A DNA stretch of 63,234 nucleotides from Deltaproteobacteria bacterium (GCA_030595125.1 JAUVDV010000025.1:1-63234), one strand, 5' to 3'. Shown: positions 431 to 30,023, numbered from the stretch's first letter. Made by a program: numbers and translations. Notes: a model not told the origin generated them from the sequence alone.

Positions 431-486
431 GATTGCCCCGCCTTTCATTTCGTTTCTCCCTTATCAACAAACAAACAGCAACACTT

Positions 487-3441: not shown

Positions 3442-3445
3442 CAAG

Positions 3446-4606
3446 ATGGGCGCCTTTATAAGTCAAACCGCTGCGCGCATGCCCCCGTTCCTGGTGATGG
3501 AGGTGCTCGAACGCGCCGCAAAGCTGGAACGCGAGGGGAGGTCCATCATCCACATGGAGGTGGGAGAGCCGGACTTCGACACGCCGGAAGTAATCCGCGA
3601 GGCCGGAATACGAGCCCTGCGCGACGGCCGAACTCACTACACTCACTCCCTCGGTCACCCCGAGCTGCGCGACGCGATCTGCGCGTGGATGCACCGCCGT
3701 TACGGCGTCGAGGTATCGCCGCAACGGGTAGTGGTCACCATGGGCACCTCGAGCGCGATACTGCTCGTCTGCGCGGCGATTCTCGACCCGGGGAGTCGCG
3801 TCCTGATGACCGACCCCTGCTACGCCTGCTATCCAAACTTCGTCATCGCCTGCCATGGGGAATCCGTGCGGATCCCCGTCCGGGAGGAGGATGGCTTTCA
3901 GTACAATCCCGAGGCGGTGCGAAAAGAGGTAGAACGCGGTGCGCGGGCACTGATGCTGAACTCTCCGGCAAACCCCACCGGCATCGTGACGTCCGGCAAG
4001 CGACTCGAAGAGCTTGTGGAGGTCACCAGAGATCGCGTGCAGATCGTATCCGACGAGATTTACCACGGACTCACCTACAGCGAAGATGCGCGATCGATTC
4101 TCGAGTTCGATCCGGAAGCCATCGTGGTCAGCGGTTTCTCCAAGCTGTTCGCCATGACCGGATGGCGCCTCGGCTGGGCCATACTGCCCGAGCATCTGGT
4201 CCGCCCGGTGCAGAAACTCCAGCAGAATCTGTTGATATCCGCGCCGGATTTCCCGCAGTTCGCCGGCATCGCCGCGCTCGAAGAGGCGCAGGACGACATC
4301 GAGCGGATGCGGCTGTGTTACGACGAGCGGCGACAGCTCGTTCTGGAACGGCTCAGGGATATGAACCTCAACGTGTTGGTGGAGCCCACGGGCGCCTTTT
4401 ACGTGTTCTTCAATGTGAGCCGGTACACCGACGATGTGTACTCCTTCGCGTTTCAGATTCTCGAGGAGGCGGGGGTCGCCCTCACCCCCGGGGTGGACTT
4501 CGGCCCCAACGGACAGGGTTTCCTGCGCCTGAGTTACGCCAACTCCCTTGACAATCTGAAAGAAGGGCTCAATAGGCTGGAGTCGTTTCTCAGAAAGCTA
4601 GATTGA
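3446..4606 (+). CDS. Pyridoxal-phosphate aminotransferase, class I/II (AspC-like)
   Basis: The 386-residue protein has the fold-type I aminotransferase pattern: MEVGEPDFDTP near the N-terminus, NSPANPTG in the middle, and the PLP-binding lysine K233 in SGFSKLFAMTGWRLGW, with RLSYANS near the end. Length and motifs fit aspartate/aromatic or unspecified amino-acid aminotransferases that move an amino group between an amino acid and a 2-oxo acid in the cytoplasm; the substrate cannot be read from sequence. The reading frame is open from 3401, but ATG 3446, four bases after the previous stop, gives the normal family N-terminus. It is likely cotranscribed with the gene before it and with the RseC-like gene two bases downstream. 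Confidence 0.88.
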   Translation: MGAFISQTAARMPPFLVMEVLERAAKLEREGRSIIHMEVGEPDFDTPEVIREAGIRALRDGRTHYTHSLGHPELRDAICAWMHRRYGVEVSPQRVVVTMGTSSAILLVCAAILDPGSRVLMTDPCYACYPNFVIACHGESVRIPVREEDGFQYNPEAVRKEVERGARALMLNSPANPTGIVTSGKRLEELVEVTRDRVQIVSDEIYHGLTYSEDARSILEFDPEAIVVSGFSKLFAMTGWRLGWAILPEHLVRPVQKLQQNLLISAPDFPQFAGIAALEEAQDDIERMRLCYDERRQLVLERLRDMNLNVLVEPTGAFYVFFNVSRYTDDVYSFAFQILEEAGVALTPGVDFGPNGQGFLRLSYANSLDNLKEGLNRLESFLRKLD

Positions 4607-5231: not shown

Positions 5232-5247
5232 TGGCATTCTTGTTGCA
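5232..5247 (+). promoter_or_regulatory. Sigma-54 (-24/-12) promoter for the envelope-protein operon
   Basis: TGGCATTCTTGTTGCA has GG and GC separated by ten bases, a near-perfect RpoN promoter. It lies 36 bases before ATG 5284 in a 216-base non-coding gap. TGTTCAA at 5212-5218 and its inverse TTGAACA at 5265-5271 flank it; whether they bind an activator is unknown. The only non-coding content otherwise seen in the gap is an A/T-rich stretch near 5100-5130 with a weak hairpin. Confidence 0.75.
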
Positions 5248-6936: not shown

Positions 6937-8508
6937 ATGAGAAAAACATCAATATTCTACATTTTCCTTCTGCTCTGGTCAGCGACCGGCTGCGACGTGG
7001 AAGGCCTGTATCGAGACGACATCAACGTGCGCACCACGGTCCGCCTGGAATCGGGGCTGGCCTTCCTCGAAGGGGATCCGGGCAGGGTCCTCTTCGTCGA
7101 GATGACGCAAGACGGCGTCAAAACAAAAACGGTGTTCGAAGCAAGGCTCGGCGAGGAGATCATCAGCATGCGAGGCGGCCCCGCTCCCGAGCAGGCGACG
7201 ATGCTCTTTATAATGACCGCGCCCGAAGATCCGCGGGAAACCACCATCGACGAGGCTCTCTTTCGGGTGGATCCCCTTACCGGTGTCACGCACGAATTCG
7301 CCATCGGTTCCGTATTCGGAGGGATGTCCTTTGACCCGACGCAGAGATACGCAGTCCTCTATCACCAGGACAGCGACACCACATCTACCGGCGGTCTGTT
7401 CAATCCAAATGAGGTCGGCGTGATCGATCTCACAGCGCTGCCGGCAACGGACAATCCGCGAATCCTGTCCGTGGGTATAGGCGGCCGCACCATCCAGGGA
7501 GTTCATTTCATGGATGAACTCGTGGTGGACGGCGTAACCAGGCAGATAGTCATCTTTGGCGCCGATGGGATGATCAAGATGATCGACCTGATCGATCCTC
7601 TCGCGAGCACCGTCTCGGTGAAACTCGTCAACGATGATGATCCGAGATCAGTCGTCCCCATCAAAGTCCTGGAGCGGCCCGGGGACGACGCCCACGATCC
7701 CCTGATCTTCGTCCTGGCGAGCGAGTCCCAGGACATCTACGCCATATCCCTGGTCGCACACCCCGAAGACGAGCCCGGCTTCTGGGCCACCCTCAACCAG
7801 TACGATGGAGGGTCCAACCCCAGCGATATCGCGGTGGTGGAGGACGACGATATTCCGCTGCTCGTTGTAGCGAGCTCCAGCGGTTCGCTCGTCACGGTAG
7901 TGGATGTGGACACGGCAGACATGTTTAGCATCACGCTAATGGACTCCCCCACCAGGATCCTGGTTCGCGAACAGGAGGGCTCCGATGAGGCGGTGCTGTA
8001 CGGCGACAACCTCGGTCGGATCTACTTCCTTGCGGTCGACGACCTGGCGACCGAGAAGGGGAGCAACCTGGACGATATGATAATCCCCGACGGCATCCTG
8101 GAGTCTTCGGTGCTCGACGCAGATCGCCTGATGATCATCCCGTACTATGATACCGGGCTGGCGTTGCTGGACCTGAATGAGCGGGAGATCACACGGCTCA
8201 CGTCCCAGTCCGGGTACGACTGGACCGGCGCCACCATGCAAGACGGTGTGTTTTTCCTGGGCCAACCCGGCGGTGACGAGATAGTGAGCCTCGACATGGT
8301 CACGGGTCATCCCGAGCCGCTCATCCTTGACGAGTCTGTCCAGAGCTTTGACCTGTTCCCGCAAGTGGGCATGGGATTCGTGCTCCACCCGACCGCGACC
8401 GGAAGGGGAACCCTGTTCCCGCTGGATTTACCCACTCGTGAGAACGCCATCATTGTGGACGGGTTCTGGCTCGAGGGATTTCTCGACAATAAGGAGGTGA
8501 CCGAATGA
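6937..8508 (+). CDS. Propeller-like lipoprotein
   Basis: The 523-residue protein opens with a short lipoprotein signal (MRKTSIFYIFLLLWSATGC, cysteine 19). The mature part has no low-complexity linker and shows repeated beta-strand units ending in aspartate-rich loops (for example QDIYAISLVAHPED, SGSLVTVVDVDTAD), so a beta-propeller is likely. It shares general design with the preceding lipoprotein and sits between it and a small outer-membrane barrel gene whose ATG overlaps its stop (ATGA at 8505-8508), so the three are almost certainly translated from one message. The partner is unknown; a complex of two surface propellers with a barrel is an inference from gene order. Confidence 0.75.
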   Translation: MRKTSIFYIFLLLWSATGCDVEGLYRDDINVRTTVRLESGLAFLEGDPGRVLFVEMTQDGVKTKTVFEARLGEEIISMRGGPAPEQATMLFIMTAPEDPRETTIDEALFRVDPLTGVTHEFAIGSVFGGMSFDPTQRYAVLYHQDSDTTSTGGLFNPNEVGVIDLTALPATDNPRILSVGIGGRTIQGVHFMDELVVDGVTRQIVIFGADGMIKMIDLIDPLASTVSVKLVNDDDPRSVVPIKVLERPGDDAHDPLIFVLASESQDIYAISLVAHPEDEPGFWATLNQYDGGSNPSDIAVVEDDDIPLLVVASSSGSLVTVVDVDTADMFSITLMDSPTRILVREQEGSDEAVLYGDNLGRIYFLAVDDLATEKGSNLDDMIIPDGILESSVLDADRLMIIPYYDTGLALLDLNEREITRLTSQSGYDWTGATMQDGVFFLGQPGGDEIVSLDMVTGHPEPLILDESVQSFDLFPQVGMGFVLHPTATGRGTLFPLDLPTRENAIIVDGFWLEGFLDNKEVTE

Positions 8509-9212
8509 TTCGCTTCACCGCAATAACAATTATCGGGTTGGCTATCCTTGCCGTTTCGCCGTGCGCACAGGCCGACATCCACCTGGAGATCGGCCTGGCC
8601 GCAACACCGACGGTGGCCCAGGATCCCGCCCTGGAGGCATTCTCCGAGAAAGACCTTCGCATGGGTCGTTTCGGCGCAGATATTCGCCTGGAAGTGGCGA
8701 GCTTCTGGAGAGACATTCACCTGCTTCCGTTCATCGGCTACCGGGGCGCTCTGGACGAAGGGGACCCGTTCGGGATGATGGAGACCGGGCTCAAGACCCA
8801 CGACCTGTTCGCCGGGTTTCGCTTCAGAGGCTGGTTCCAGCCGTGGCTGGGCATTTTTCTGGAGGCGTCCGGCGGGTTGTTGGTGGCCGGCATGACCGGC
8901 GATATCTGGAGCGCCGACGGGACCGGGGCGAGGAGTCGATACGAGGACAAGCAAATAACCTGGTCGGCGGGTGGTCTGGCCGGCATGGAATTTCGGCTCT
9001 CACCCGCCATGCTGACGCGCAGGGGCGTGACGAAATTCAACTTCGGCGGGGAGATCGGCGCGGGCTATGTTCGTCGCGGCGACATCTCGTTCTCGCCCGA
9101 ACTCGTCGGCGGCGACGAGTACTCGCTCCCCGTGGATTCCACTGCCGATTGGGGCGAGATCAACCTCTCGGGTTGGGTTGTTCAGATCGGACTGACCTTC
9201 AGCTTTTTCTAG
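8505..9212 (+). CDS. Small outer-membrane beta-barrel-like protein
   Basis: The 235-residue protein has a cleavable signal peptide (MIRFTAITIIGLAILAVSPCAQA) and alternating hydrophobic/polar strands with aromatic girdles (WFQPWLGIFLEASGGLLVAG, FNFGGEIGAGYVRRG), ending in LTFSFF, whose terminal phenylalanine is the usual C-terminal signature of Bam-inserted barrels. The length suggests eight to ten strands. An ideal SD (AAGGAGGTGA) precedes the ATG, which overlaps the previous stop. It is probably the membrane component working with the two upstream lipoproteins; the function is not known. Confidence 0.72.
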   Translation: MIRFTAITIIGLAILAVSPCAQADIHLEIGLAATPTVAQDPALEAFSEKDLRMGRFGADIRLEVASFWRDIHLLPFIGYRGALDEGDPFGMMETGLKTHDLFAGFRFRGWFQPWLGIFLEASGGLLVAGMTGDIWSADGTGARSRYEDKQITWSAGGLAGMEFRLSPAMLTRRGVTKFNFGGEIGAGYVRRGDISFSPELVGGDEYSLPVDSTADWGEINLSGWVVQIGLTFSFF

Positions 9213-10081: not shown

Positions 10082-10103
10082 TTTTCTACGCCGATGCGAT
10101 GGA
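10082..10103. repeat. 22-bp direct repeat, left copy (duplicate of the activator gene 3' end)
   Basis: The sequence TTTTCTACGCCGATGCGATG plus GA is identical to 12137-12158. The right copy contains the stop codon and last five codons of the activator gene at 12141-13136; this left copy is non-coding. Together they bracket the lipoprotein gene at 10116-12134, as expected if that gene was inserted between two copies of the junction. The GGA at the end of this copy also forms part of the ribosome-binding site of 10116. Confidence 0.85.
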
Positions 10104-10115
10104 GGTTCTATTAAG

Positions 10116-12134
10116 ATGCATTTTCCACACGTACCGAGAGGCCCGGCAAAGAGGTCCGGAGAGGCCGCATTGCTCTGCCTGGTACTGATCGCCTGTGCGT
10201 GCAGCAAGGAGAACACACCGTCCGCGCCAGAGTACTGCGAAAATGGGGGCTACTGGTCGCAAATGGCCAGCCCGGTCTCCTCGGATCTCGACGGAGTCTG
10301 GGGCTCGGCGCGAGACGATGTATGGGCCGTGGGTTCGAACGGGGTGATTCTTCACTACGACGGCGTCGAGTGGTCTCTGGTCGAGCACGGTTTCGCCTCC
10401 ACTCTTGATCACGTGCAGGGGACCTCGGCCGACGATGTCTGGGCCGCCGGCTGGGAAGAGGGGGAAACCCGCGTCTACCACTACGACGGATCGACCTGGT
10501 CCCGCTCGGATCCCGGCTTCAATGGAAAGATTCGCGGAATGTGGGTCGCTGGCCCTGATTCGGTGTGGACCACCGGCTCGCACTTAAATCAGGGACGCAT
10601 CTGGCACTACGACGGAAGCGGTTGGGCGGCGGTCGGCAACGAGATGGATGAAGTGCGCAGCGCCTGGTCGCCCTCACCGGACACCACCTACTTCATCGGC
10701 TCCACCTACTCCGGAAGCGAGGTCGATCCACCTGCGTACGACGTGGTGAGATACGATGGGTCCTCGTTTGAGACCATGTACTCCCTCGAGTGGACCGATT
10801 TTAACGGCATCTTTGGGATCGATGAGAACAACATCTACGTTGTGGGCGATACCTGGAACGAAGCGGCCCTGGATATAACCGGCCTGATCCTGAGCGGCGA
10901 CGGCACGAATTTCTCGGTGATGGACGTGGACCCGGAGCACGAGATAAACGATTTGTGGGGTAACCTCCCCGAAAACCTGTTCGCTGTGGGCGACCACGGG
11001 ACGATCCTGCAGCGCGACCAGAGCGGATGGCGAAGTGTAGACGTCGGAATCGACGCCCAGTTAAAAGGCGTGTGGGGCGTCTCGGGCACCAAGGCCTTTG
11101 CCGTCGGATCGGCGGGAACGATCCTCCACTACACCTGCGATCCGCCGGAGGAGGACACCGACACCGGACCGGAGACCTTCGACTTCGAGGAACTGTTTCA
11201 CTACGAGGGCACCGAGTTCTACGGCATCTGGGCCGAATCTCCGAGCGAGCTGTACATTGCCTCGACCACCGGGGTCTGGCTGGTGCACGACGAGGTGAAC
11301 GCCGATCTGATCTGGACCAAGAGCGGCATGTATCTCGAGGGTATTTGGGGAGCAGCCGGTACAGCAAACGTTTTCGCGGTGGGCGCCGATAGTGACGGAG
11401 CGTTGATCGTCCATTGCAATGGCGACGAGTGCCAGGAGATGGAAGTCGAATCCCCGGCCACACTAGTCGACATACACGGCTTCTCGGCTACCGAGGTGTA
11501 TGCGGTTGGATACAACTACTCGGGAGGATACCCTCTCGCTTTTGTTCTGCAGTACGACGGCAACACCTGGCAGAGCATGGAGTTGGAAAGCGACACCATG
11601 CTCACGGACATCTGGGGCGCTGCGCCTGACGACCTGTGGGTTACCGGCTGGACCTTCGAGGGGGACGGAGAGGTGGAGTACGGTCGCATCCTGCACTACG
11701 ACGGCATCGAGTGGACCCTGGCGGAAGACTGCTTGGAAACCGACCTGCTGAACATTCACGGCAACGCCCAGGGCAATATCATTGCGGTAGGTCAAAATGA
11801 GTTTGCGCCGGTATTGGGGGGATCACCTTTCGGCCAGGTGATGCGCTTCGATGGCTCTCAGTGGTCGGAGATCCTGACGCAAGACGAGCGGGGCTTCCGC
11901 GCGGTCTGGGTTTCCCCTAACGAAGAAATCTACATCGGCGCAAGTCGTTGGTTGGAAGTAGAACAGAAGCTCGAAACCGAGGTATTGCGCTTCACCGGCG
12001 ACGACTTCGAAGTGCTCAGCTGCCAGACCACCGACCCCGGTGATCCGATTGAGGATTTCTGGGGTGAATCCGACGACGTCCTGTTCGCAATAACTCGGGA
12101 AGGAAGCCTGCTCCGTCGCAGCGACGGCCTATAG
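10116..12134 (+). CDS. Large lipoprotein with repeated DVWAVG / HYDG propeller blades
   Basis: The 672-residue protein has a lipoprotein-type signal (ALLCLVLIACAC, lipobox IACAC) and about a dozen blades of the form WGSARDDVWAVGSNG followed by ILHYDGVEW. This repeat class (related in pattern to Ycf48/BNR-like propellers) is frequent in exported proteins of Myxococcota. A Cys-containing acidic insert (CDPPEEDTDTG) near residues 342-352 divides two groups of blades, so two propellers are possible. The SD GGAGG lies 10 bases before the ATG. The stop is only 6 bases from the stop of the convergent activator. The gene is flanked by 22-bp direct repeats, so it may be a later arrival in the operon. 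The ligand is unknown. Confidence 0.78.
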   Translation: MHFPHVPRGPAKRSGEAALLCLVLIACACSKENTPSAPEYCENGGYWSQMASPVSSDLDGVWGSARDDVWAVGSNGVILHYDGVEWSLVEHGFASTLDHVQGTSADDVWAAGWEEGETRVYHYDGSTWSRSDPGFNGKIRGMWVAGPDSVWTTGSHLNQGRIWHYDGSGWAAVGNEMDEVRSAWSPSPDTTYFIGSTYSGSEVDPPAYDVVRYDGSSFETMYSLEWTDFNGIFGIDENNIYVVGDTWNEAALDITGLILSGDGTNFSVMDVDPEHEINDLWGNLPENLFAVGDHGTILQRDQSGWRSVDVGIDAQLKGVWGVSGTKAFAVGSAGTILHYTCDPPEEDTDTGPETFDFEELFHYEGTEFYGIWAESPSELYIASTTGVWLVHDEVNADLIWTKSGMYLEGIWGAAGTANVFAVGADSDGALIVHCNGDECQEMEVESPATLVDIHGFSATEVYAVGYNYSGGYPLAFVLQYDGNTWQSMELESDTMLTDIWGAAPDDLWVTGWTFEGDGEVEYGRILHYDGIEWTLAEDCLETDLLNIHGNAQGNIIAVGQNEFAPVLGGSPFGQVMRFDGSQWSEILTQDERGFRAVWVSPNEEIYIGASRWLEVEQKLETEVLRFTGDDFEVLSCQTTDPGDPIEDFWGESDDVLFAITREGSLLRRSDGL

Positions 12135-12140
12135 TTTTTT
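12113..12140 (+). terminator. Possible Rho-independent terminator at the end of the lipoprotein gene
   Basis: CCGTCG, a CAG loop and CGACGG (12113-12127) form a perfect 6-bp hairpin overlapping the last codons, followed after seven bases by six T residues (12135-12140). The distance between stem and T-run is longer than usual, so this is a weak candidate. It would separate the rightward operon from the convergent activator gene. Confidence 0.3.
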
Positions 12141-12158
12141 CTACGCCGATGCGATGGA
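12137..12158. repeat. 22-bp direct repeat, right copy (3' end of the activator gene)
   Basis: This copy is identical to 10082-10103. It contains the stop codon (12141-12143, minus strand) and the last five codons of the sigma-54 activator. The repeat pair encloses 2,033 bases with a single lipoprotein gene and no recombinase. Confidence 0.85.
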
Positions 12159-13136
12159 TCGTATGGATCTCGCTTCCATTTCGTCGATACGGGAGACGCG
12201 ATCTCTGAGGGTGGTTCTGGCCACTCCGTACTGCCGGGCTGCGGCGGCGACGTTGCCCTGGTACCTGGCCAGGGTTTCAAGGATGCGACTGTCGGGAACA
12301 CTGTCGAGCCGGAAGACCACGGGTTTGATCACCTTGTCGGGAACCTCGATATCCAGATCGCAGGCATGTATTGTCTCACCGTTTGCAAACGCAGCGGCCC
12401 GGTATAAAACGTTGCGAAGCTCCCGGGCGTTGCCGGGCCACGAGTGATCTTCCAGCTTGTTCACCGCATCTCGGTGCAGCTCCCGGCGACCCACATCGTC
12501 TTCCATGGCGGCCAGGAAGTGCCTCGCCAACAGCGAAATGTCCTTCGGCCGGTCACGCAGGGGCGGGGTGACGATCTTGAGGGTCGCGAGCCTGTGATAA
12601 AGGTCGAGGCGGAATGTGCCGTCCTTTATCATCTCCGTCAGGTTCCGATTGGTCGCCACCACCAGCCTGAAATCCGTTTTCTCCTCGCGTTCGGCTCCGA
12701 TGCGCCGGATGATTCCCGTATCCAGGACCCGCAGCAGCGCCGCCTGCTGAGAAAAGGGGAGCTCTCCGATCTCGTCCAGAAAAAGGGTTCCCCCGTGGGC
12801 CTGGGCGAAGAGGCCGCAGTGGGAGGCTCCAGCTCCGGTGAAAGCTCCCCGCTCGTGACCGAACAGGATGTCCTCGAACATGGTCTCCGTCAGCGCGCCG
12901 CAGTTGACCGCCACGAATCGGTTGTCTGATCTCTGAGAACAGTTGTGCAGGCCGCTGGCCACCAGCTCCTTTCCGGTGCCGCTCTCTCCCACAATCAGGA
13001 CCGGCGCGTTCAGCGGGGCCAGTCGCGCCAGCTCTATCCGAAGCAGGCATATCGGCGACGAACTTCCGACAATTCCCGGATCCGGTCGTGGGTCAACGGT
13101 TTGTGTTCTCATCGGGATCGGATTGACGGCTTCCAT
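12141..13136 (-). CDS. Sigma-54-dependent activator, PspF-like (AAA+ and Fis HTH only)
   Basis: The 331-residue protein has no receiver or sensor domain: after about 25 residues it enters the AAA+ core (Walker A GESGTGKE, intact sigma-54 contact loop GAFTGA, Walker B GGTLFLDEIGE, arginine region ATNRNLTE and FRLDLYHRL) and ends with a Fis-type helix-turn-helix (GNVAAAARQYGVARTTLRDR). Such activators remodel RpoN holoenzyme and are usually controlled by a partner protein. ATG 13136 is chosen because GGGAGGAA lies just upstream; TTG 13163 is an in-frame alternative. It sits at the end of a sigma-54-promoted operon and is a natural candidate to activate it, which is an inference. Confidence 0.88.
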   Translation of the reverse strand: MEAVNPIPMRTQTVDPRPDPGIVGSSSPICLLRIELARLAPLNAPVLIVGESGTGKELVASGLHNCSQRSDNRFVAVNCGALTETMFEDILFGHERGAFTGAGASHCGLFAQAHGGTLFLDEIGELPFSQQAALLRVLDTGIIRRIGAEREEKTDFRLVVATNRNLTEMIKDGTFRLDLYHRLATLKIVTPPLRDRPKDISLLARHFLAAMEDDVGRRELHRDAVNKLEDHSWPGNARELRNVLYRAAAFANGETIHACDLDIEVPDKVIKPVVFRLDSVPDSRILETLARYQGNVAAAARQYGVARTTLRDRVSRIDEMEARSIRSIASA

Positions 13137-13284
13137 TGCGTTCCTCCCATCGACATGGCCCAAGTGCCTGCACCCTTAATCGGTCGTTTGGAGGAGGAGT
13201 TGCGAAAAAAATGAAAAAAATGATTAGTAACCCGATTTGTCACCGCGTATCGTCGATAAGTAGATTCATGTATAGTTGTCGACA

Positions 13285-21088: not shown

Positions 21089-22843
21089 ATGGTTCGACAC
21101 AAACAAAAGAAGAAGACGCCATCGAATGAGACCGGTGCGCCGTTTCTGTCACCTCGGCTTCTGTGGATGCTGGGGATCGGTCTGATCTCGCTGTTCTGGC
21201 TGGTGCTGAAGATGTTCGGCATGAACGCCTACGGCGGCGACGAGCACATCTACCTCTATCAGGCGCAGCTCGTATCCGAGGGTGTTGCGCCCTATAGCGG
21301 CTTCGCCATGGCCCACCCGCCGCTGCAGGCTGCCCTCACCGCCGTGCTGTTGAAGGTCTTCGGATACCAGTTTCTCATGGCGCGCATGCTTCCTGTCGCC
21401 TGGTGCCTGGCCGGGGGTCTGGTCCTGGCGATCATGGTGCGCAGGGAGTCGGGATTCGTCGCGTCGGCGGCGGCCCTCGCGCTCTACATCCTCGCCTACG
21501 AACCCCTCCGCGCTTCATCCCATTTCACCGGGGTGAACATGACAACCACCCTCATGCTTGTCGCCTTCATGACCGCGAGGACGGGTCACATCAAGGTGTG
21601 CGCCGGGTTCTGCGTCGCTGCGGTCTTCACGAGGCTCTACGCAGCCCCGGGAGTGATCGCGCTCACCGTGTGGATCCTGGTCTCGGATCGACGCGCGGGT
21701 CTTCGACTCATCGCGTGGGGCGCCGGCTTCGGAACTGTCGTGTTCCTCGCCGTGGGAGCCTGGGCCGGTTTCGAGGACATGGTCCACAACATGCTGCGCT
21801 ATCACGCGCAGAAGACCCCCATGAAACCCGAGAGCCTGGCCAACATGAAGGCGAACGTCCTGTTCCACAACGCTCTGCCCCTGGCGATTTTCGCGCTCTC
21901 CGTTCCGGCCATGTTCGGGGCGATGGCCCGGAGATGGAAACAGAGCGCCTCGGATCTGCGGATCATCGAGCGGCTGAGCGATGCGATCAGGGGCGCGCGG
22001 ATAAGCCTTCCATTGCTCGGAGCGTTCACCGCCGCCCTCTTCGGGCTGATCCTGCTCAACATGGACCGCGTGTGGATGTACTACTTCGTCCCTTCTTTTC
22101 CGTTCGCGGCGATGGCCGGTGGATGGCTGGTCTCCAGGTTGTTCCAGGGAGGTGTACGGCTCTTTATTGACAGGAGGCGGGCTTCTGCCACCGGGTTGAA
22201 CCGCGTGACGATAGCGGGAGGTATCATCGCCGTGGCGTGTATCCTCGCGACGTTCTTTTTCGGACCCAGGCTCGAATCCAGGTTGAACTACTACCAGAAG
22301 GAGATCGATCTTCCGGTGGCGAAGAGGACACACGAATACACCTGGAAGGACGGAATGCTTCCGGGCCCTGTCAACGACGCCGTAAGATCCGTCATCTGGA
22401 ATGACCAGCGGACCATCGGAGATCACTACTGGAGCTACACATCCTACCTCTGGCACGAGAGCAGGCATCTGGATGTGGTCGACAAGATCACCCGTGAGAT
22501 AATCGAGCGCACCGACGAGGGTTACAGTATCTTCGGCGATTCGGGCACCGTTCCCCTGTTCGCTCTCCTGACCGGCCGCTCCATCGCAGCGGCCGAGGTG
22601 GACACCAATATCCAGAGATATCGCTCCGGCAACGCGGATCCCGGCGATCTGATCAGACGAATAGATGAGCCGGGCACCCGGCTGATCATCCTGCGCAACC
22701 GTTTCGGGATTGCCGGACTCCCGCAGGTGCAGAAGCTCATTGCGAGCAGGTATAAACTCGTCAGGAAATTCGTGACAGCCCAGAAGAAACTCTACCTGAT
22801 GTACGAACGCAAACCCGAACCCGATGGAGACATGCAACGGTAA
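21089..22843 (+). CDS. GT-C family membrane glycosyltransferase (ArnT/PMT-like)
   Basis: The 584-residue protein has about ten transmembrane helices. The first extracytoplasmic loop, NAYGGDEHIYLYQAQLVSEG followed by APYSGFAMAHPPL, carries the acidic pair that serves as catalytic base in GT39/GT83-type enzymes using polyprenyl-phosphate sugars. A soluble C-terminal part of about 170 residues follows the last helix (after GPRLESRLNYYQKEIDLP). It probably adds a sugar to a lipid or protein at the periplasmic face. ATG 21089 is preferred over TTG 21083; no clear SD is present. The stop overlaps the next ATG (TAATG), so it is coupled to the spermidine-synthase-like gene. Confidence 0.82.
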   Translation: MVRHKQKKKTPSNETGAPFLSPRLLWMLGIGLISLFWLVLKMFGMNAYGGDEHIYLYQAQLVSEGVAPYSGFAMAHPPLQAALTAVLLKVFGYQFLMARMLPVAWCLAGGLVLAIMVRRESGFVASAAALALYILAYEPLRASSHFTGVNMTTTLMLVAFMTARTGHIKVCAGFCVAAVFTRLYAAPGVIALTVWILVSDRRAGLRLIAWGAGFGTVVFLAVGAWAGFEDMVHNMLRYHAQKTPMKPESLANMKANVLFHNALPLAIFALSVPAMFGAMARRWKQSASDLRIIERLSDAIRGARISLPLLGAFTAALFGLILLNMDRVWMYYFVPSFPFAAMAGGWLVSRLFQGGVRLFIDRRRASATGLNRVTIAGGIIAVACILATFFFGPRLESRLNYYQKEIDLPVAKRTHEYTWKDGMLPGPVNDAVRSVIWNDQRTIGDHYWSYTSYLWHESRHLDVVDKITREIIERTDEGYSIFGDSGTVPLFALLTGRSIAAAEVDTNIQRYRSGNADPGDLIRRIDEPGTRLIILRNRFGIAGLPQVQKLIASRYKLVRKFVTAQKKLYLMYERKPEPDGDMQR

Positions 22844-25800
22844 TGACAAACAGGCACACTTCGCTGCGCGCCGTGATCGCGCTGGCTATCGCAACGCTGA
22901 TCTCCGGAGCCGCAGGTCTTTCTTACGAGATCATCTGGACACGCATGCTCGTGGTGCCCCTGGGCAACTCCGCCGACGCCATCGCCCTGGTCCTTTGCTC
23001 CTTCATGCTGGGCATGGCCCTGGGCGCCCGCCTCCTCGGGGGACTGGCCGATCGCATCTCTTCCCCCCTGAAGATCTACGTGATCGCGGAGGTGGCCTTG
23101 GGCGTCTACGCCGTCATGATGCCCTTCGTCATCCCGGCCCTTTCCGGATCCGGCGCGCCCGCAGTGGTGAGGCTCGTCGTCGCCGCAGTGCTCGTGGCAA
23201 TTCCCGCCTGCCTGATGGGCGCCTCGGTCCCGGTGCTGGTCCGGGCCCTGGCGGTAGTATCCGAGGACGTGAAGAATCGCGTGGGGCTTTTCTACGGAAT
23301 CAACACCGTGGGAGGAACCGCCGGCGCCGCGTTCGCCGGGTTTGTGGCCGTCCCCTCCCTCGGGCTCATCGAAACCTCTTTCCTGGCTGCCGGCGCCAGC
23401 ATTGTCGCAGCGTTGATCGTCGCCGCTGTCTCCCGCCTTTCCGGTGGCGTCGCAAACAGGAAAGCTCCGGCGAAACCCGAGGATGAGTCCGGTATCCCAG
23501 CTCGCAAGACCGCCATCGCCGCCCTGATCGCAGCGGGGGTCGGTGGGTTCGTCATGCTCGCCTCGGAGGTGGTCTGGGCGCGTATTCTCACCTTCGTTTT
23601 CGGTCACGACACCTACGCCTTCGCTATTCTCCTGGTGGTTGTCCTCGCGGGCCTGGGACTCGGGGGTCTTCTCCACCGGCTCCTGTCGAAGCGCGATCCG
23701 GTGAAGGTCGCTTCGTGGATGCTCGTCCTGCTTGTGGTCAGCCTTTTCGTCTCATATGTAATGGCGACAACACTCATTGTGTCGCTGGGAAGGGATCCGT
23801 TCCACCTGGCCGGCTGGAGCAACCTCACTACATCGTTGTGGACCGAATTCTACAGAGAGATTCTGTTCACGCCCATCCTCGTTCTTCTGCCGGCCGTTTT
23901 CGCCGGGGCATCACTCCCGGCCGCGTGCGCGCTCTACGCCGGTCCCGCGTCGAGCTCTGGAAGAAGGATCGGAACCGCCATCATGGTGAACGGGATCTTC
24001 GCGGCCACAGGATCGATCGTCACCTGGTTCGCGATCATCCCGACCATTGGAATACAAAACACCTTCGCGTTTCTCGGCGTCGTGGCGGCATTGGGAGTTA
24101 TTCCCCTGTTGCTATGTGAGGAAGGGACGCGCCGCGTCGTAAAAATGGCGCTGCTCGCCCTGTTTGTCGTCGCATCTGTGGGCGTTTCCACGGGATCGAA
24201 CATGCCCAGGAAAATGCTCAAAGAAGCGGTTGGCAAGAATCACCAGGAAATTATCTATTACAATGAGGGTCGCACCGGGACCGTCTCGGTGACGAAAAAT
24301 TCGATCAACGGCGAGCGCCAACTCTTCATAAACGCAGTCAACGAGGTCACCACCCGGCTGGTGCACGACCAGAGCTTCAAGCTGCTCGGTCACCTCGGAC
24401 CGCTTCTTCATCCCAAACCGCAAAAGGGTCTCATGATCTGCTTGGGTGCCGGTCTCTCTGCGGGGGCGGCCCTCAGACATCCACTCCAGAGTCTCGACGT
24501 GGTGGATCTGTCGAGTTCCATGGAACAGGCGGCCCGGGAGTTCGCCGATATCAACAACAACGTGCTCGACGATCCGCGATTCCACCTTCACATCGGCGAC
24601 GGGCGCCAGTTCCTGTTGCGAAGCGACGAGCGATACGACGTGATGATGGTGGACTCCACTCATCCAAAGTCGGTGGACTCGTGGATCCTGTACACCCTGG
24701 AGTTCTACGAGCTCATGCGGGATCACCTCGAGGAAGACGGCATCGCTGTGCAGTGGCTCCCCCTCCACGGGCTGTCCGAGCGGGAGTTCAAGATCATCGT
24801 GCGTACTTTCATGGAGGTCTTCCCCAATACCACCCTCTGGGTCAACGTGGGTTTCGAGACTTACGGACAGGTGGCGTACGTCAAGCTAGTGGGAACCCTT
24901 GAACCACTGGTAATCGACTACCGGGAGCTGTCCGCACGATTGAAGGAACCGCGCATCCAAAAGGATCTGGAACCTTACGGCATGACTTCTCCCGACGAAA
25001 TCCTGGACTGCTTCCTGGCATCGCCTTCCGTGGCGACCGGATGGACGAAGGGCGTGCCGGTCCAGACCGACAACCAGCCCTTCCTGCCATACATCACGGA
25101 ACACTCGGAGGGGCGTCGGATGGAGCCCGCTCTCCTTCTGGCGGTGCGCTCCGGGGTCGCCCCATACCTCTTTCGGATGGGGGATCGGGAGCCGGACGTG
25201 TTGGCGAAGCTCGAAACCACCTTCGAGGCCCAGGGGTTTCTCCTGAGCGGCATGCTCGATCGGGCGAAGGAGGCGTGGCCCGACGGGAAGAAGATCGCCC
25301 TGTTCGGCGAGCGGCTGGATCGGGGCCACCCGTACTACCTGGCCCTGGTGGAACTCTACGGCGATGATCCGGAAAAGCTGTTCGAGATCGGCAGTTACCT
25401 GGGAAACCTGGGATTTCGCAAGGACGCCGGAAAGCTCTACGACAGGGCACTGAAGATCGATCCGAACAACGGTCGAGCCATCATCAACCGAGCGCTGTTG
25501 CACCTCGATCTGGGTGACACCGACCGGGCGATCAAGTCGCTGATGGGGCTCGTCGCTTCGGAGCCCGACAACGCCCTGGCGCGCTACAACCTCGGGACTG
25601 CGATCCTTTCGTCCGCAGACGCCGCAAGCGCCATTCCTCACCTCGTCAAGGCCCTCGAGATCGATCCTGATCTTCACGGGGCTTCGCTTTCCCTGGCGGA
25701 GGCCTATCGCAATATGGGCCGGCTGAAGAAGGCGGAGGGTTTGCTTCGGGAGCTGACGCAGAGGGCACAGTGGCTTCCAGAGGCGTGGGACATGCTCGGA

Positions 25801-26271
25801 CTTGTCGAGGCCGGACGAAGCGAATGGGCAAACGCCAGGCAATATCACTCTCGAGCGCTGGCTCTGGATCCGTACAGCGCGCAGGCGCATTACAACATGG
25901 GAATAGCCCTTCAGGAGGAGGGGCGGTTGAAGGCGGCGGCGCAGGCCTACGGGGCGGCGCTCCGAATCCAACCGGACGACGCGGAGGCCCACAACAACCT
26001 GGGGCTCGTGTACGCGGCGGCGGGCCTGCTCGAAAAGGCGGCGATGCATCACCGCAAGGCACTGGAGATTGAGCCCCATTACCCGGAGGCGGCCTTCAAC
26101 CTGGGGTTGGCCTATCGCGGACAGCACAAATATCTCCTCGCCGCCGAGGCGTTCACCATCGCCCTGACCCTGGCGCCGGACCTCGCCGTGGCGAAGGAGC
26201 AGCTCGAGCAAATGGGCATCGAAAAGGCCAAAATCGATATCGTCGACGCCGGCCCGGACGCCGGGGATTGA
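22843..26271 (+). CDS. Fused membrane transporter-like / spermidine-synthase-like / TPR protein
   Basis: The 1142-residue protein has three parts. Residues 1 to about 455 are 12-14 hydrophobic helices (AIATLISGAAGLSYEIIWTR, GMALGARLLGGLADR), the fused-MFS portion typical of long membrane spermidine synthases. Residues about 465-720 are a Rossmann SAM or decarboxy-SAM-binding fold (YNEGRTGTVSV, CLGAGLSAGAA near 530, VVDLSSSMEQAA, MVDSTHP near 602). Residues about 845-1130 hold at least seven TPRs. Strict polyamine synthesis is uncertain for this subfamily; methyl- or aminopropyl-transfer at the membrane is possible. It is coupled to the GT-C gene upstream. The last 22 bases of the gene, including the stop, recur at 28427. 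Confidence 0.85.
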   Translation: MTNRHTSLRAVIALAIATLISGAAGLSYEIIWTRMLVVPLGNSADAIALVLCSFMLGMALGARLLGGLADRISSPLKIYVIAEVALGVYAVMMPFVIPALSGSGAPAVVRLVVAAVLVAIPACLMGASVPVLVRALAVVSEDVKNRVGLFYGINTVGGTAGAAFAGFVAVPSLGLIETSFLAAGASIVAALIVAAVSRLSGGVANRKAPAKPEDESGIPARKTAIAALIAAGVGGFVMLASEVVWARILTFVFGHDTYAFAILLVVVLAGLGLGGLLHRLLSKRDPVKVASWMLVLLVVSLFVSYVMATTLIVSLGRDPFHLAGWSNLTTSLWTEFYREILFTPILVLLPAVFAGASLPAACALYAGPASSSGRRIGTAIMVNGIFAATGSIVTWFAIIPTIGIQNTFAFLGVVAALGVIPLLLCEEGTRRVVKMALLALFVVASVGVSTGSNMPRKMLKEAVGKNHQEIIYYNEGRTGTVSVTKNSINGERQLFINAVNEVTTRLVHDQSFKLLGHLGPLLHPKPQKGLMICLGAGLSAGAALRHPLQSLDVVDLSSSMEQAAREFADINNNVLDDPRFHLHIGDGRQFLLRSDERYDVMMVDSTHPKSVDSWILYTLEFYELMRDHLEEDGIAVQWLPLHGLSEREFKIIVRTFMEVFPNTTLWVNVGFETYGQVAYVKLVGTLEPLVIDYRELSARLKEPRIQKDLEPYGMTSPDEILDCFLASPSVATGWTKGVPVQTDNQPFLPYITEHSEGRRMEPALLLAVRSGVAPYLFRMGDREPDVLAKLETTFEAQGFLLSGMLDRAKEAWPDGKKIALFGERLDRGHPYYLALVELYGDDPEKLFEIGSYLGNLGFRKDAGKLYDRALKIDPNNGRAIINRALLHLDLGDTDRAIKSLMGLVASEPDNALARYNLGTAILSSADAASAIPHLVKALEIDPDLHGASLSLAEAYRNMGRLKKAEGLLRELTQRAQWLPEAWDMLGLVEAGRSEWANARQYHSRALALDPYSAQAHYNMGIALQEEGRLKAAAQAYGAALRIQPDDAEAHNNLGLVYAAAGLLEKAAMHHRKALEIEPHYPEAAFNLGLAYRGQHKYLLAAEAFTIALTLAPDLAVAKEQLEQMGIEKAKIDIVDAGPDAGD

Positions 26272-26272
26272 A
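26250..26272. repeat. 23-bp direct repeat, left copy (3' end of the spermidine-synthase-like gene)
   Basis: The repeat starts CGGCCCGGACGCC and ends with TGA plus A. It covers the last seven codons and the stop of the upstream gene and is identical to 28427-28449. The pair encloses the two lipoprotein genes at 26569 and 27096. Ten further bases (CTTGCGATAG) recur at nearly the same distance beyond each copy (26297-26306 and 28475-28484), suggesting an older and longer duplication. Confidence 0.85.
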
Positions 26273-26306
26273 AAAAGGTAACAAGCTGAGTTTTTCCTTG
26301 CGATAG

Positions 26307-26351
26307 CCCCCTATCCCCAACCCTTTCCCCCGGAAGGGGAAAGGGAGGCGG
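26307..26351. repeat. REP-like palindromic element 1
   Basis: The element contains CCCCTATCCCC followed by a perfect hairpin, CCCTTTCCCC (26321-26330) and GGGGAAAGGG (26336-26345) around CGGAA. It lies 36 bases after a stop codon in the 297-base gap 26272-26568. The rest of the gap holds no gene; it includes the sigma-54 promoter at 26510 and two copies of TGGCACA near 26420. Related elements occur at 28377, 36500 and 60943. Confidence 0.7.
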
Positions 26352-26509
26352 AGCATTCATAATCATCCGAAACTCAGGCTCAAACACATGTTTGTTCCAC
26401 GCAATAAGTTCAACGGCGAATGGCACATGTGGCACAGTATCTATGGCCTGTTCAACCCACCAGATCATGTGATTTCAACCACTTGAGCCGAGCTGAACAA
26501 TGCGATTAT

Positions 26510-26525
26510 TGGCATTGAGTTTGCA
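26510..26525 (+). promoter_or_regulatory. Sigma-54 (-24/-12) promoter for the lipoprotein pair
   Basis: TGGCATTGAGTTTGCA has GG and GC exactly ten bases apart, matching the RpoN consensus. It lies 43 bases before ATG 26569. TGTTCAA at 26449 and CTGAACA at 26493, both upstream, form an inverted pair that might be an activator site; the motif is short and could be chance. Confidence 0.75.
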
Positions 26526-26568
26526 GTATGTACGGCATGCATCGAATTCCTGAAGAAAGGAAACGGCA

Positions 26569-27093
26569 ATGGCGCGATTCGCAAAAACCGTACTGAGCCG
26601 TCGAAAGCCGGCGGGGGCGCGGGGCCACGATATCGGGTGCGCTCGATCGGTCGCCGCGACAATCTTTCTTGCATTCTCGGTTTTCGTTTCCGGTTGCCTG
26701 GACGAAACCGAGGAAAGACAGATAGACAACGAACCGATCGACGGCGACCAGGGAGACACCGAAGATACCGACACAGGCGCTGATGCGGGAGATACCGATA
26801 CCGACTGGATGACGAACCCGTCCGGAATAAGGGGCTACGTTAAGATCGGTAATCCGTGGGAAGGCGTAATAGTCTCTGCGGGAAATCTGGGAACGAACAC
26901 GGGTGGAGGAGCTACCCATACCGATGTGGATGGATACTACGAAATCGAGTTGCCGAGCGGTGCCTACTCTGTCAGCGCGTTGTACTTTATGTCGAATGGG
27001 GCCGAATGCTGGGATGGACTGACACCTGTGATCGTCAGTACGGGTCTCTGGGTAGAGGTCGATCTTGACTTGGTTTGCGAAGACGTGGATTGA
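26569..27093 (+). CDS. Lipoprotein with carboxypeptidase-regulatory-like beta-sandwich
   Basis: The 174-residue protein has an unusually long n-region (about 28 residues) before a hydrophobic core and lipobox FVSGC (cysteine 43). An acidic linker (about 48-82) leads to one small beta-sandwich: GIRGYVKIG, GVIVSAGN, THTDVDGYYEIELPSGAYSV, the pattern of carboxypeptidase-regulatory-like/CarboxypepD_reg domains, which act as structural or binding modules at the surface. A GAAAGGAAA ribosome-binding site precedes the ATG. It is the first gene after the sigma-54 promoter and is 2 bases from the next lipoprotein gene. The later ATG options do not give a better signal peptide. Confidence 0.75.
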   Translation: MARFAKTVLSRRKPAGARGHDIGCARSVAATIFLAFSVFVSGCLDETEERQIDNEPIDGDQGDTEDTDTGADAGDTDTDWMTNPSGIRGYVKIGNPWEGVIVSAGNLGTNTGGGATHTDVDGYYEIELPSGAYSVSALYFMSNGAECWDGLTPVIVSTGLWVEVDLDLVCEDVD

Positions 27094-27095
27094 AC

Positions 27096-28355
27096 ATGTT
27101 CAAAACAATAAAATCCATTCCATTTATGTTTGTTGTGATCTTGCTCGGATGTGATTTCCATAATCAAGATGATAATTCGACCCAAAATGATGGGGAAGGA
27201 GGGTCGGTTTGCGTGGGCGACGAGACTACCGGTGACAGCGACGGTGACGGCATCTGCGACAGCGACGATCCTTGCCCATTGGAGCTGGTATGGGAGGGTA
27301 ACTATGAAATCACCGATGCTAACTCGTTGGACACCCTGCGGGACTATGCGGAGATAACCGGCTCGCTGATACTGGATCCGCAGTTCCCTCACCTTGATGG
27401 ACCCGAATGCCTGATGCGTATCGGGGGGGACTTGGTCATGCAGGGAAATGACACGGTTGTGACCGTTGACGGATTCCAACGCCTGGAGGAAGTAGCCGGT
27501 CATCTTTCGATTTCTCACAACACGGCAATCGAATCGTTGGATCTTGGGGGCTCGCTGAATTCCATAGACGGCGGCCTGTACTTGACTCAAAACCCCTATC
27601 TGAGCTCGATTAGCATCTCGCCTGTTCTGCAAAATGTGGAAGGGAACATCTGGCTAGTATATAGCTTCTCTCTCGAGTCGTTCAAACTGCCAGAAGAGTT
27701 ATCGTACATCGGTGGTGATCTTGTATTCAGCCGCAATTTCTCCCTGGTTTCCGTCGAATTTCCCAATTCACTCGAGGTGATCGACGGCGATATTGATTTC
27801 TCGCGAAACTTCGACCTGGCGGAGCTAAACCTTGGGAACGGTTTGACTCACATTGGTGGGCGTTTCTACTTCTACGAAAACGACGACTTGGTGAATCTTG
27901 AGTTTCCCGAAACACTCGAGTCAGTTGGTGGGGATGTGTATCTGTCTTCCAACCATAGTCTGAAGACAATCAGACTTCCCCAGTCACTTCAAAGCATTGG
28001 CGGTTCGCTGGATATCTCGCTAAACTACTATCTGGCGCAGCTGGTTTTCCCGACCGACCTGGAGAGTGTTGGTGCCGACCTCGCAATCGGAAAAGCCAAC
28101 CTATTGACGCATCTGGAACTTCCCGCCTCTTTGACCCATGTCGGGGGTTATTTTACGCTCCATAACAATCAGGGATTGATCAGTATCTCTGCACCGGGAC
28201 TGGAGTCTATCAGCGACAAATTTCAAGTGCATGAAAATCCGAATCTGCCCACTTGTCAGCCGGTGGAAATCATGGAGCAGCTAACCTCGTTTGGTAGTGC
28301 CTGCATCCAAAACAACGCAGTCGACACCTGCGACGACTTTACCGAAGGGTGCTGA
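27096..28355 (+). CDS. Lipoprotein with leucine-rich-like beta-helix repeats and Ca-binding-type loop
   Basis: The 419-residue product begins MFKTIKSIPFMFVVILLGC, with the lipidated cysteine at 19. A calcium-binding-like Asp loop (GDSDGDGICDSDDPC) precedes about nine repeats of 23-24 residues, for example LVSVEFPNSLEVIDGDIDFS, ending in a two-cysteine tail (PTCQPVEIMEQL and TCDDFTEGC). The fold and tail are those of the repeat lipoproteins at 487, 44165 and 50139, but the repeat consensus differs (FPxSLExIGGD instead of NLDGLSALTSVG), so it is a more distant member. ATG 27096 starts the signal peptide, two bases after the preceding stop; the frame is open from 27075. It is cotranscribed with 26569. 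Confidence 0.8.
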   Translation: MFKTIKSIPFMFVVILLGCDFHNQDDNSTQNDGEGGSVCVGDETTGDSDGDGICDSDDPCPLELVWEGNYEITDANSLDTLRDYAEITGSLILDPQFPHLDGPECLMRIGGDLVMQGNDTVVTVDGFQRLEEVAGHLSISHNTAIESLDLGGSLNSIDGGLYLTQNPYLSSISISPVLQNVEGNIWLVYSFSLESFKLPEELSYIGGDLVFSRNFSLVSVEFPNSLEVIDGDIDFSRNFDLAELNLGNGLTHIGGRFYFYENDDLVNLEFPETLESVGGDVYLSSNHSLKTIRLPQSLQSIGGSLDISLNYYLAQLVFPTDLESVGADLAIGKANLLTHLELPASLTHVGGYFTLHNNQGLISISAPGLESISDKFQVHENPNLPTCQPVEIMEQLTSFGSACIQNNAVDTCDDFTEGC

Positions 28356-28376
28356 GGAATCTTCCCTTACAAAAAA

Positions 28377-28415
28377 CCCCTATCCCCTCCCGGGGGAAAG
28401 GGCCGGGGATAGGGG
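28377..28415. repeat. REP-like palindromic element 2
   Basis: CCCCTATCCCC (28377-28387) and GGGGATAGGGG (28405-28415) are perfect 11-base arms with a G/C-rich centre (TCCCGGGGGAAAGGGCC). The element lies 21 bases after the lipoprotein stop and 11 bases before the right 23-bp repeat. It shares CCCCTATCCCC and GGGGAAAGGG with element 1, so similar palindromes bracket the lipoprotein pair. Confidence 0.7.
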
Positions 28416-28426
28416 GCAGTACGGTA

Positions 28427-28449
28427 CGGCCCGGACGCCGGGGATTGAA
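28427..28449. repeat. 23-bp direct repeat, right copy
   Basis: This copy is identical to 26250-26272 but non-coding here, just upstream of the porin-like gene. It appears to be the displaced 3' end of the spermidine-synthase-like gene after insertion of the lipoprotein pair between the copies. Confidence 0.85.
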
Positions 28450-28456
28450 GGCCAGG

Positions 28457-28485
28457 TTGACCTTGCTCGACCTTCTTGCGATAGT
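28457..28485 (+). promoter_or_regulatory. Sigma-70-type promoter for the porin-like gene
   Basis: TTGACC (28457-28462), 17 bases, then GATAGT (28480-28485). The start of transcription would fall at about 28492, almost on the ATG at 28494, and no SD is visible, so the message may be leaderless or nearly so. Confidence 0.45.
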
Positions 28486-28493
28486 CCGCCGAT

Positions 28494-30023
28494 ATGATGA
28501 GAATCGCTTTTATCATCGCTATTATCGCCGCGTCGGTGTCCATGGCTTCCGCTGCGGCGGCGGACGTCGAGGTCGACTGGGGCGCATTTGTCGAGAACGA
28601 TCTCTGGGCGTCGGTGCACCGGGTTGATGAGCCCGGCATCTACCGCAACCAGACCGCCCTGGGCTTCGACCTCAAGGCATCGCTGGTGCCGGATAAGCTC
28701 CGTTTCGTGGGGGATATCCAGTTCGTATGGACCGGCTTCACCAGGGATACCGAGTTCGAAGGCCTCACAACGCGAAACACGGTCTCCCCGTATCACTTCG
28801 AGAGCCAGGCGGCCTATATCGAGGTGATCGAGATCCTGCCGTACCTGGATTTGCGCGTGGGACGCCAGATCGTCCAGTGGGGCGCGTCAGATGTATTCAA
28901 CCCCACCAACAACCTGAACGCCCCCGACATGGAGGACCCGCTCAAACTCGGAGAACTCGTGGCCAACGAGATGATCAGGCTCGACTGGAATCCCGGGGGT
29001 GACAATTTCATCTTCACCGCGGTCTGGGTGCCGGTGTTCCAGCCCGCCATGGTGCCGGGCTCCGCCTTGCTGGCGGTTGGAGATCCCGAGTCCATGTTTC
29101 CGTTCGTCAGCCCGCAAACCAGGCTCCGGGCGGAACGCATCAGAAACATCTATTTGCGTAACCCCGAGTACTACAACATCCATCAGCCCCACGTGGTTGC
29201 GTCCATGCCCGAGTTCAGTATGGCCAACAGCCAGGTAGGTCTGAAGATGCAATGGCTGGTGGGCATGTTCGATATGTCGCTCTCCTACTACAAGGGTATC
29301 GACACTTTCCCGGTCCCCGTAAAGAGCTACTCCTCCGCCGAGCGAGCCGGCGAGTCCGCCGCGGACGGGACGCCCATCCTCGACGTGGACTCAGAGGTCA
29401 AACTGGTCTACCCCAAAAAGCAGGTGCTCGGCTTCGATATTGCGGGGCAACTGCCCTTCCTCGACGACGCCGGGTTCTGGCTCGAAGGGGCGGTGTTCTT
29501 TCCCGAGACAGTGCAGATGTCTTTCGACATCACCGAGGTAGCACCGGGGGCCGAGGTGATCATCGACGACGTTGTGACGGACCAGCCGTATTTCAAGTAC
29601 ACGATAGGCGCCGACTACTCCATCAACGAGCATCTGTTCGTCACCGCTCAGTTCCTGCACGGTTTCCTGGACGAGTTCGGATCGCACGCCATCAACAATT
29701 ACTGGATCGCCACCGTGGACATCAAGATGGCACAGGAACGCGTGCTGCTGCGGCTGGTCGGCATGGGCGAAATCCCCCACGAAGACGACGATATTCCCCT
29801 CGACGACGACGGTGACGGCCGAGTGGAGTCCTTCGCCATGGGCGCCACCAATGACGGAACCATCGGATCCCTCGTCCTCTTTCCCTCCATTGTCGTCCGG
29901 CCCATCGACGGCCTGGAGATGGCCCTGGGGAGCTACTTCCTCCTGGGACACGACGAGTCCAAATTCGGCATGCCCGCCGCGGGACCGTCCCTCGCATTCT
30001 TCCGCGCCAAGGCGTCTTTCTGA
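28494..30023 (+). CDS. Outer-membrane DUF1302-like porin
   Basis: The 509-residue protein has a signal peptide (MMRIAFIIAIIAASVSMASA) and a long series of amphipathic strands. The segment LDLRVGRQIVQWGASDVFNP followed by TNNLNAPDMEDPLKLGE is the hallmark of the DUF1302 family, long predicted outer-membrane barrels whose transport role is not well defined. An acidic loop (HEDDDIPLDDDGDGRVE, about residues 423-439) resembles a Ca-binding surface loop. The C-terminus ends FFRAKASF with terminal Phe, as expected for Bam substrates. ATG 28494 and 28497 are both possible. It is followed 46 bases later by a Crp/Fnr regulator gene. Confidence 0.8.
   Translation: MMRIAFIIAIIAASVSMASAAAADVEVDWGAFVENDLWASVHRVDEPGIYRNQTALGFDLKASLVPDKLRFVGDIQFVWTGFTRDTEFEGLTTRNTVSPYHFESQAAYIEVIEILPYLDLRVGRQIVQWGASDVFNPTNNLNAPDMEDPLKLGELVANEMIRLDWNPGGDNFIFTAVWVPVFQPAMVPGSALLAVGDPESMFPFVSPQTRLRAERIRNIYLRNPEYYNIHQPHVVASMPEFSMANSQVGLKMQWLVGMFDMSLSYYKGIDTFPVPVKSYSSAERAGESAADGTPILDVDSEVKLVYPKKQVLGFDIAGQLPFLDDAGFWLEGAVFFPETVQMSFDITEVAPGAEVIIDDVVTDQPYFKYTIGADYSINEHLFVTAQFLHGFLDEFGSHAINNYWIATVDIKMAQERVLLRLVGMGEIPHEDDDIPLDDDGDGRVESFAMGATNDGTIGSLVLFPSIVVRPIDGLEMALGSYFLLGHDESKFGMPAAGPSLAFFRAKASF

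Follow-up and report, generated by a model that had tools for sequence, protein, structure and literature searches.

Genomic islands that depend on tyrosine recombinases typically show direct repeats of gene 3′ ends. Among small variable segments of E. coli, S. aureus, and S. pyogenes, 10 to 18% are flanked by direct repeats, mostly of <30 bp, and illegitimate recombination, assisted by homology or not, has been proposed as their origin (Touzain et al. 2010, PMC2884548). The deleted allele is frequent at such repeat-flanked loci in E. coli, and homology-facilitated illegitimate recombination is documented in transformable bacteria (PMC2884548 and work cited there). Transposable elements of the IS1202 group generate duplications of 16 to 28 bp (PMC10132070).

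Here we compare with these systems a locus in a 63,234-nucleotide stretch of DNA (the window) that belongs to a 5.39-Mb deltaproteobacterial genome (G000). Two genomes of the same genus were used for comparison, G001 and G002 (Deltaproteobacteria bacterium, isolates CSMAG_220 and CSMAG_2956). All three are metagenome-assembled genomes (MAGs) of 203 to 510 contigs; G001 and G002 share 95% identity with one another, and 91.8% each with G000.

A lipoprotein gene pair behind a conserved gene's stop codon

The preliminary description of this DNA had reported that two lipoprotein genes lie between exact 23-bp copies of a neighboring gene's end, and each element of that report was borne out. The locus comprises the following features.

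22843-26271, + strand: resident gene whose 3′ end is duplicated, with a membrane part, a spermine-synthase domain, and TPR repeats
26250-26272, + strand: left copy of the 23-bp repeat, consisting of gene end, stop codon, and one base
26273-28426, no strand: inserted segment of 2154 bp, missing from the orthologous site of G001 and G002
26306-26345, + strand: left dispersed palindrome, a REP-like hairpin, inverted with respect to 28378-28417
26510-26525, + strand: sigma-54-type −24/−12 promoter-like site, TGGCATTGAGTTTGCA, 44 bp upstream of the ATG
26569-27093, + strand: accessory lipoprotein of 174 aa with a weak CarboxypepD_reg-like domain, signal peptide FVSGC
27096-28355, + strand: accessory LRR (BspA-type) lipoprotein of 419 aa, signal peptide ILLGC
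28378-28417, − strand: right dispersed palindrome, inverted copy
28427-28449, + strand: right copy of the 23-bp repeat, noncoding, running on into ancestral intergenic sequence
28457-28485, + strand: likely sigma-70-type promoter of the DUF1302 gene, TTGACC-17-GATAGT, read from sequence
28494-30023, + strand: resident downstream gene, encoding a DUF1302 outer-membrane-like protein

The repeat, CGGCCCGGACGCCGGGGATTGAA, is exact in both copies, and no third copy was found in the window or elsewhere in the 5.39-Mb genome, even when as many as 3 mismatches were allowed. The left copy is formed by the final codons and TGA of the synthase gene (Pfam Spermine_synth, 1.5e-17, plus TPR), followed by one A. 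A 23-bp repeat was recovered in 0 of 100 shuffles, and the longest direct repeat expected by chance was 16 to 17 bp (first-order Markov resampling of 633 kb of the genome at 0.4- to 8-kb spacing). With just two copies, the 23-mer was ruled out as a genome-wide repeat. It was also considered as a CRISPR repeat (it ends in GATTGAA and contains CCCGG-ACG-CCGGG), and this was dropped, there being no array and only the two copies.

Both flanking genes have orthologues in G001 and G002, at 91 to 92% identity for the synthase gene and 94 to 95% for the DUF1302 gene. The preliminary description had proposed a search for relatives with one copy of the repeat and no lipoprotein genes, and the two relatives have exactly that arrangement: the synthase gene stands directly beside the DUF1302 gene, with a single gene end between them (in G001, the junction reads GGCCCGGACGCCGGGGATTGAGGG). 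In G000, the left copy carries on the coding frame and the right copy carries on the ancestral intergenic region; the locus is therefore an insertion with a duplicated gene end. Its occurrence after the neighbor's stop codon, in one lineage, is confirmed. The segment has the characters of a small variable segment, being present in G000, absent from close relatives at an otherwise collinear locus, bounded on both sides by direct repeats of <30 bp, and not explained by any known mobile element. Both relatives conserve TTGACC-17-GATAGT ahead of the DUF1302 gene, and it is preserved in G000 despite the insertion.

An assembly artefact was considered, as MAG contigs are the source of the window and of both relatives. 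The junctions, however, are well inside a 63-kb contig, two other genomes are collinear with it on both sides of the insert, and 23 bp is far below the k-mers of the relatives' contigs (k119 and k127, values that are the relatives' and not those of G000). An artefact is extremely improbable.

At the G002 junction (L113/L133), 15 bp are deleted precisely where the insertion lies in G000; the deletion takes the original stop, and a new one follows immediately. The 1.5 kb ahead of the DUF1302 gene contained no LRR gene in ten further members of the family (other genera or species), in which gene order is different and synteny poor.

We infer that the change was a gain rather than a loss in the sister pair; because G001 and G002 are sister genomes, these two alone do not separate a gain in G000 from an ancestral loss. 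In the latter case, the insertion would predate the split of the genus, and a single deletion through the 23-bp repeats would have removed the pair in the common ancestor of the two sisters. A deletion between the repeats would leave exactly one copy, as seen in these sisters, the deleted allele is often found at the repeat-flanked loci of E. coli (PMC2884548), and the 15-bp deletion in G002 falls at the same point. Against this history, no difference has arisen between the two copies, even though one is noncoding, the ten outgroup genomes have no LRR gene at this place (with the poor synteny noted above), and the original duplicating insertion would still be required. We consider loss possible, though on balance unlikely.

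The inserted segment has a G+C content of 51.8%, versus 60 to 62% in the flanking genes. The 27096-28355 protein is a BspA-type LRR protein by profile match (Pfam LRR_5, E value of 3e-16, 59.9 bits against a Pfam cutoff of 27.7) and has ~110 distant LRR matches within its own genome, while the 174-aa lipoprotein has no convincing homologue among 29 genomes. No transposase or integrase open reading frame (ORF) was found inside the insert, in agreement with the preliminary description. A phage origin was rejected, the LRR protein having no related locus in IMG/VR.

Upstream of the pair, the sigma-54-type site is one of three in the window that match TGGCAY-N5-TTGCW, where 0.07 would be expected; the other two are as follows.

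1627-1642, − strand: sigma-54-type site
5232-5247, + strand: sigma-54-type site

Six such matches were found in 633 kb of the genome. A sigma-54 promoter for the lipoprotein pair is credible, because lipoprotein-type ORFs follow four of the six at a distance of 10 to 44 bp; the pattern is suggestive of a sigma-54 regulon of surface lipoproteins. A further sigma-54-type site is found in L087 (reverse strand, 3634).

Repeats and palindromes around inserted genes

The preliminary description had also noted related palindromes bracketing the pair. Both are present and related, and they are better described as an inverted repeat pair of a dispersed family, with arms of 40 nt each that are 90% complementary. 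This family, GCCCCCTATCCCCRRCCCTTTCCCCCGGMAGGGGAAAGGG, is represented by ~8 additional good matches in G000 and by some in the two relatives. A number of copies stand singly, and others lie within a ~200-bp element bounded by CCGCGGAAATAAATCCCGCGGCCAGAAATG. This element was examined as a transposon with a defined duplication and rejected, as it has no clean junction. Between the palindrome arm and the 23-bp repeat there are gaps of 33 bp on the left and 9 bp on the right; being set back from the insert ends, the arms are therefore not transposon terminal inverted repeats in the usual sense.

A second repeat-flanked gene lies 16 kb away in the same genome.

10082-10103 and 12137-12158, no strand: 22-bp repeat, TTTTCTACGCCGATGCGATGGA, enclosing a lipoprotein gene at 10116-12134

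The enclosed gene encodes 672 aa. A sigma-54 activator gene on the opposite strand (12141-13163, − strand) has the right copy as its 3′ end, and the target ends of the 22-bp and 23-bp repeats are unrelated in sequence. At the corresponding site of G002 the neighboring genes abut, and G001 holds an unrelated ATPase gene there. The 10082-12158 insert contains no inverted palindromes, no transposase, and no terminal inverted repeats.

Perfect duplications of 23 and 22 bp at two independent insertions, together with 40-nt inverted repeats close to the insert ends, are what a nonautonomous transposon bounded by the palindromes might leave if a transposase acting in trans made a 22- to 23-bp staggered cut, as in the long-duplication IS1202 group. 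We consider such an element improbable: the inverted repeats are set back from the insert ends by 33 bp and 9 bp, the second insert lacks them, the same palindrome is found singly elsewhere, no transposase lies inside, and the remaining lipoprotein insertions have no duplication or duplications of other lengths. The remnant of an integrase-dependent island, with attL and attR over the gene 3′ end and the integrase lost or supplied in trans, would account for the repeats of gene 3′ ends, which are typical of tyrosine-recombinase islands. This origin is most unlikely, since integrase and phage genes are absent from all repeat-flanked inserts, the 23- and 22-bp target ends are unrelated, and IMG/VR holds no related locus. 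A trans-acting, unrecognized integration machinery that places lipoprotein cassettes behind stop codons with a stagger of about two helical turns (22 to 23 bp) is a highly speculative proposition; if it were true, such machinery would drive cell-surface diversification in the genus.

Variable sites in the genus

We surveyed variable sites in ~145 kb compared with the relatives (an estimate from aligned blocks, ~3% of the genome), with greater coverage by G002 than by G001; lipoproteins were called by a simple lipobox pattern within the first 60 residues. This revealed ~18 variable sites of 0.4 to 3.2 kb. More than half hold at least one lipoprotein-like gene, and many begin at the stop codon of a conserved gene. 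Exact boundary repeats of at least 11 bp occur at 3 of the ~18 sites, with lengths of 23, 22, and 17 bp. This fraction fits the 10 to 18% reported previously, though the criteria differ, as repeats from 5 bp were also counted in that study (PMC2884548). Duplications of 22 to 23 bp were seen in the two cases above, and other, unrelated inserts have 17 bp or none. The 17-bp exact repeat, TTGTCAATTCTCGTTTG, flanks an insert of ~0.7 kb in G002 (L155, reverse complement of 2808-3540) that is possibly a toxin-antitoxin pair. A 14-bp pair in G001, whose members differ at two positions, was no better than shuffles.

LRR genes are abundant in the genus, with 110 (G000), 51 (G001), and 80 (G002) matching stretches versus 2 to 19 in other family members. 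One of them, at 50139-51518, is absent from G002 and has no boundary duplication. A 22- to 23-bp duplication was accordingly rejected as a general mark of LRR insertion, the repeats at other LRR loci being paralogous or internal. Among these, the direct repeat at 432/1574 around the LRR gene 487-1590 was set aside as the common leader of two paralogous lipoprotein genes rather than a mark of insertion. This 22-bp leader, ACGAAATGAAAGGCGGGGCAAT (minus strand, window positions 432-453 and 1574-1595), is identical before the two adjacent genes, and similar leaders precede LRR genes elsewhere (L088, L099).

Three different lipoproteins lie directly after dnaK or a dnaK-linked gene. At the site behind dnaK (L120 6693; L138; L139), G001 and G002 have different accessory lipoprotein genes, neither of which is in G000, and from these comparisons the site may be a hot spot of turnover. 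The end of dnaK, comprising the last codons and the stop, is present twice over 75 bp with 2 mismatches (L120, 6618-6692 and 8909-8983), the copy lying 2.27 kb downstream and directly after a 1.06-kb dispersed element (7846-8908; relatives of it lie in G001 C397 and G002 C125). The 311-aa ORF of this element resembles a Y1/REP-associated transposase by eye and matched no Pfam family. The duplicated dnaK end was rejected as a third case, being a displaced copy beside a dispersed element with no clean flank.

Origin of the inserted segment

Our preferred reading, to which we assign a probability of about 0.6, sees in the lipoprotein pair an accessory variable segment that has no recombinase of its own and was put directly after a conserved gene's stop codon in the G000 lineage by illegitimate recombination. 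The event would have been of the short-homology or template-switch type and would have left a copy of the gene's last 22 to 23 bp beyond the segment. The stop of the resident gene and the promoter of the downstream gene are kept and the pair would bring its own sigma-54-type promoter, so that both neighbors would stay functional. Selection would act against insertions within genes or promoters, and this could explain why segments accumulate at gene 3′ ends; likewise, the pair may be tolerated because its position falls precisely in the gap from a stop codon to the following promoter. We infer the recombination mechanism, as well as the promoter function.

Illegitimate or short-homology recombination is favored over a dedicated element because the repeat lengths are unequal and terminal inverted repeats, a recombinase, and Ku are all lacking. 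The 95% complete genome has 0 matches to PF02735, which makes classical end joining unlikely, and Ku-dependent end joining with capture was rejected on this ground. Three points count against the preferred reading. The main reservation is that 22 and 23 bp are nearly equal, as an insertion with a fixed stagger would give; duplication of a flank is also less usual in plain end joining, and neither insert has an identified donor.

A related route is homology-facilitated illegitimate recombination with the DNA of a relative, in which pairing in the conserved gene on the left would be combined with an illegitimate join on the right. If the right join fell slightly upstream of the homology end, a gene end of arbitrary length would be duplicated. 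Both exact cases do duplicate the 3′ end of a conserved gene, and the 34 bp past the left copy resemble the ancestral intergenic region, with which they share CTTGCGATAG (shuffle P of ~0.001, post hoc). However, CTTGCGATA is also present ahead of other genes, perhaps as a promoter motif, and divergence is not raised over the last 3.4 kb of the synthase gene, so the donor would need near-identity there. The left flank shows no excess divergence that would mark a donor-derived tract, and a near-identical donor would escape this test. We regard this route as rather doubtful.

CTTGCGATAG itself occurs at window positions 26296-26306, past the left repeat copy, and at 28475-28485, in the DUF1302 promoter. 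Similar sequences, CTTGCGATAT, stand upstream of other genes (L127; downstream of dnaK in G001), and the two types are perhaps a −10 region motif.

The preliminary description had taken the pair for a mobile or recently acquired cassette placed by a site- or homology-guided event that duplicated a gene end. The accessory insertion and the duplicated gene end stand. A mobile cassette with site-specific placement is not supported: the insert DNA was seen nowhere else in the 15 genomes searched, the short palindrome excepted, the inverted repeats are off the insert ends, and most neighboring lipoprotein insertions have no such repeat or one of another length. Guidance by homology is possible, though the synthase 3′ end contains no tract from a divergent donor.

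The insertion is one among many small gene swaps in the genus and calls for no new kind of mobile element. As a single event it is ordinary; more notable is how fast a large LRR/lipoprotein repertoire turns over at the ends of genes. The locus offers a clean three-genome example of an uncultured deltaproteobacterium gaining and swapping surface lipoprotein genes where conserved genes end, with the neighbors' stops and promoters intact. With ~50 to 110 LRR matches per genome in the genus, these variable sites could serve to study surface-repertoire turnover that proceeds without a transposase.

The closest counterparts are the microdiversity loci of Touzain et al. (PMC2884548), which show the same presence or absence of segments between conserved genes, often membrane-protein genes, and the same minority with repeats of <30 bp and no known mobile element, for which illegitimate recombination was inferred. 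Here, in contrast, the repeat is the end of a neighboring gene, and the content is largely lipoproteins, many of them LRR proteins. The IS1202 group is alike in duplication length (PMC10132070), but the insert, unlike that group and DDE transposons, has no transposase and no terminal inverted repeats abutting the duplication. Tyrosine-recombinase islands at gene 3′ ends share direct repeats that contain the gene 3′ end, whereas this locus has no integrase, two genes only, and target sequences that differ between its cases. The REP/REPIN-RAYT (TnpA-REP) system has similar dispersed intergenic palindromes; here they flank an insert in inverted orientation, 2 kb apart around genes, and no RAYT lies beside the GCCCCCTATCCCCRRCCCTTTCCCCCGGMAGGGGAAAGGG family. 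REP transposition is not known to produce duplications. Finally, the 419-aa protein belongs by profile match with the BspA-type LRR surface proteins (Pfam LRR_5, Recep_L_domain), from which it differs in its fusion to an acidic linker and a lipoprotein signal and in its very many distant paralogues in the genus.
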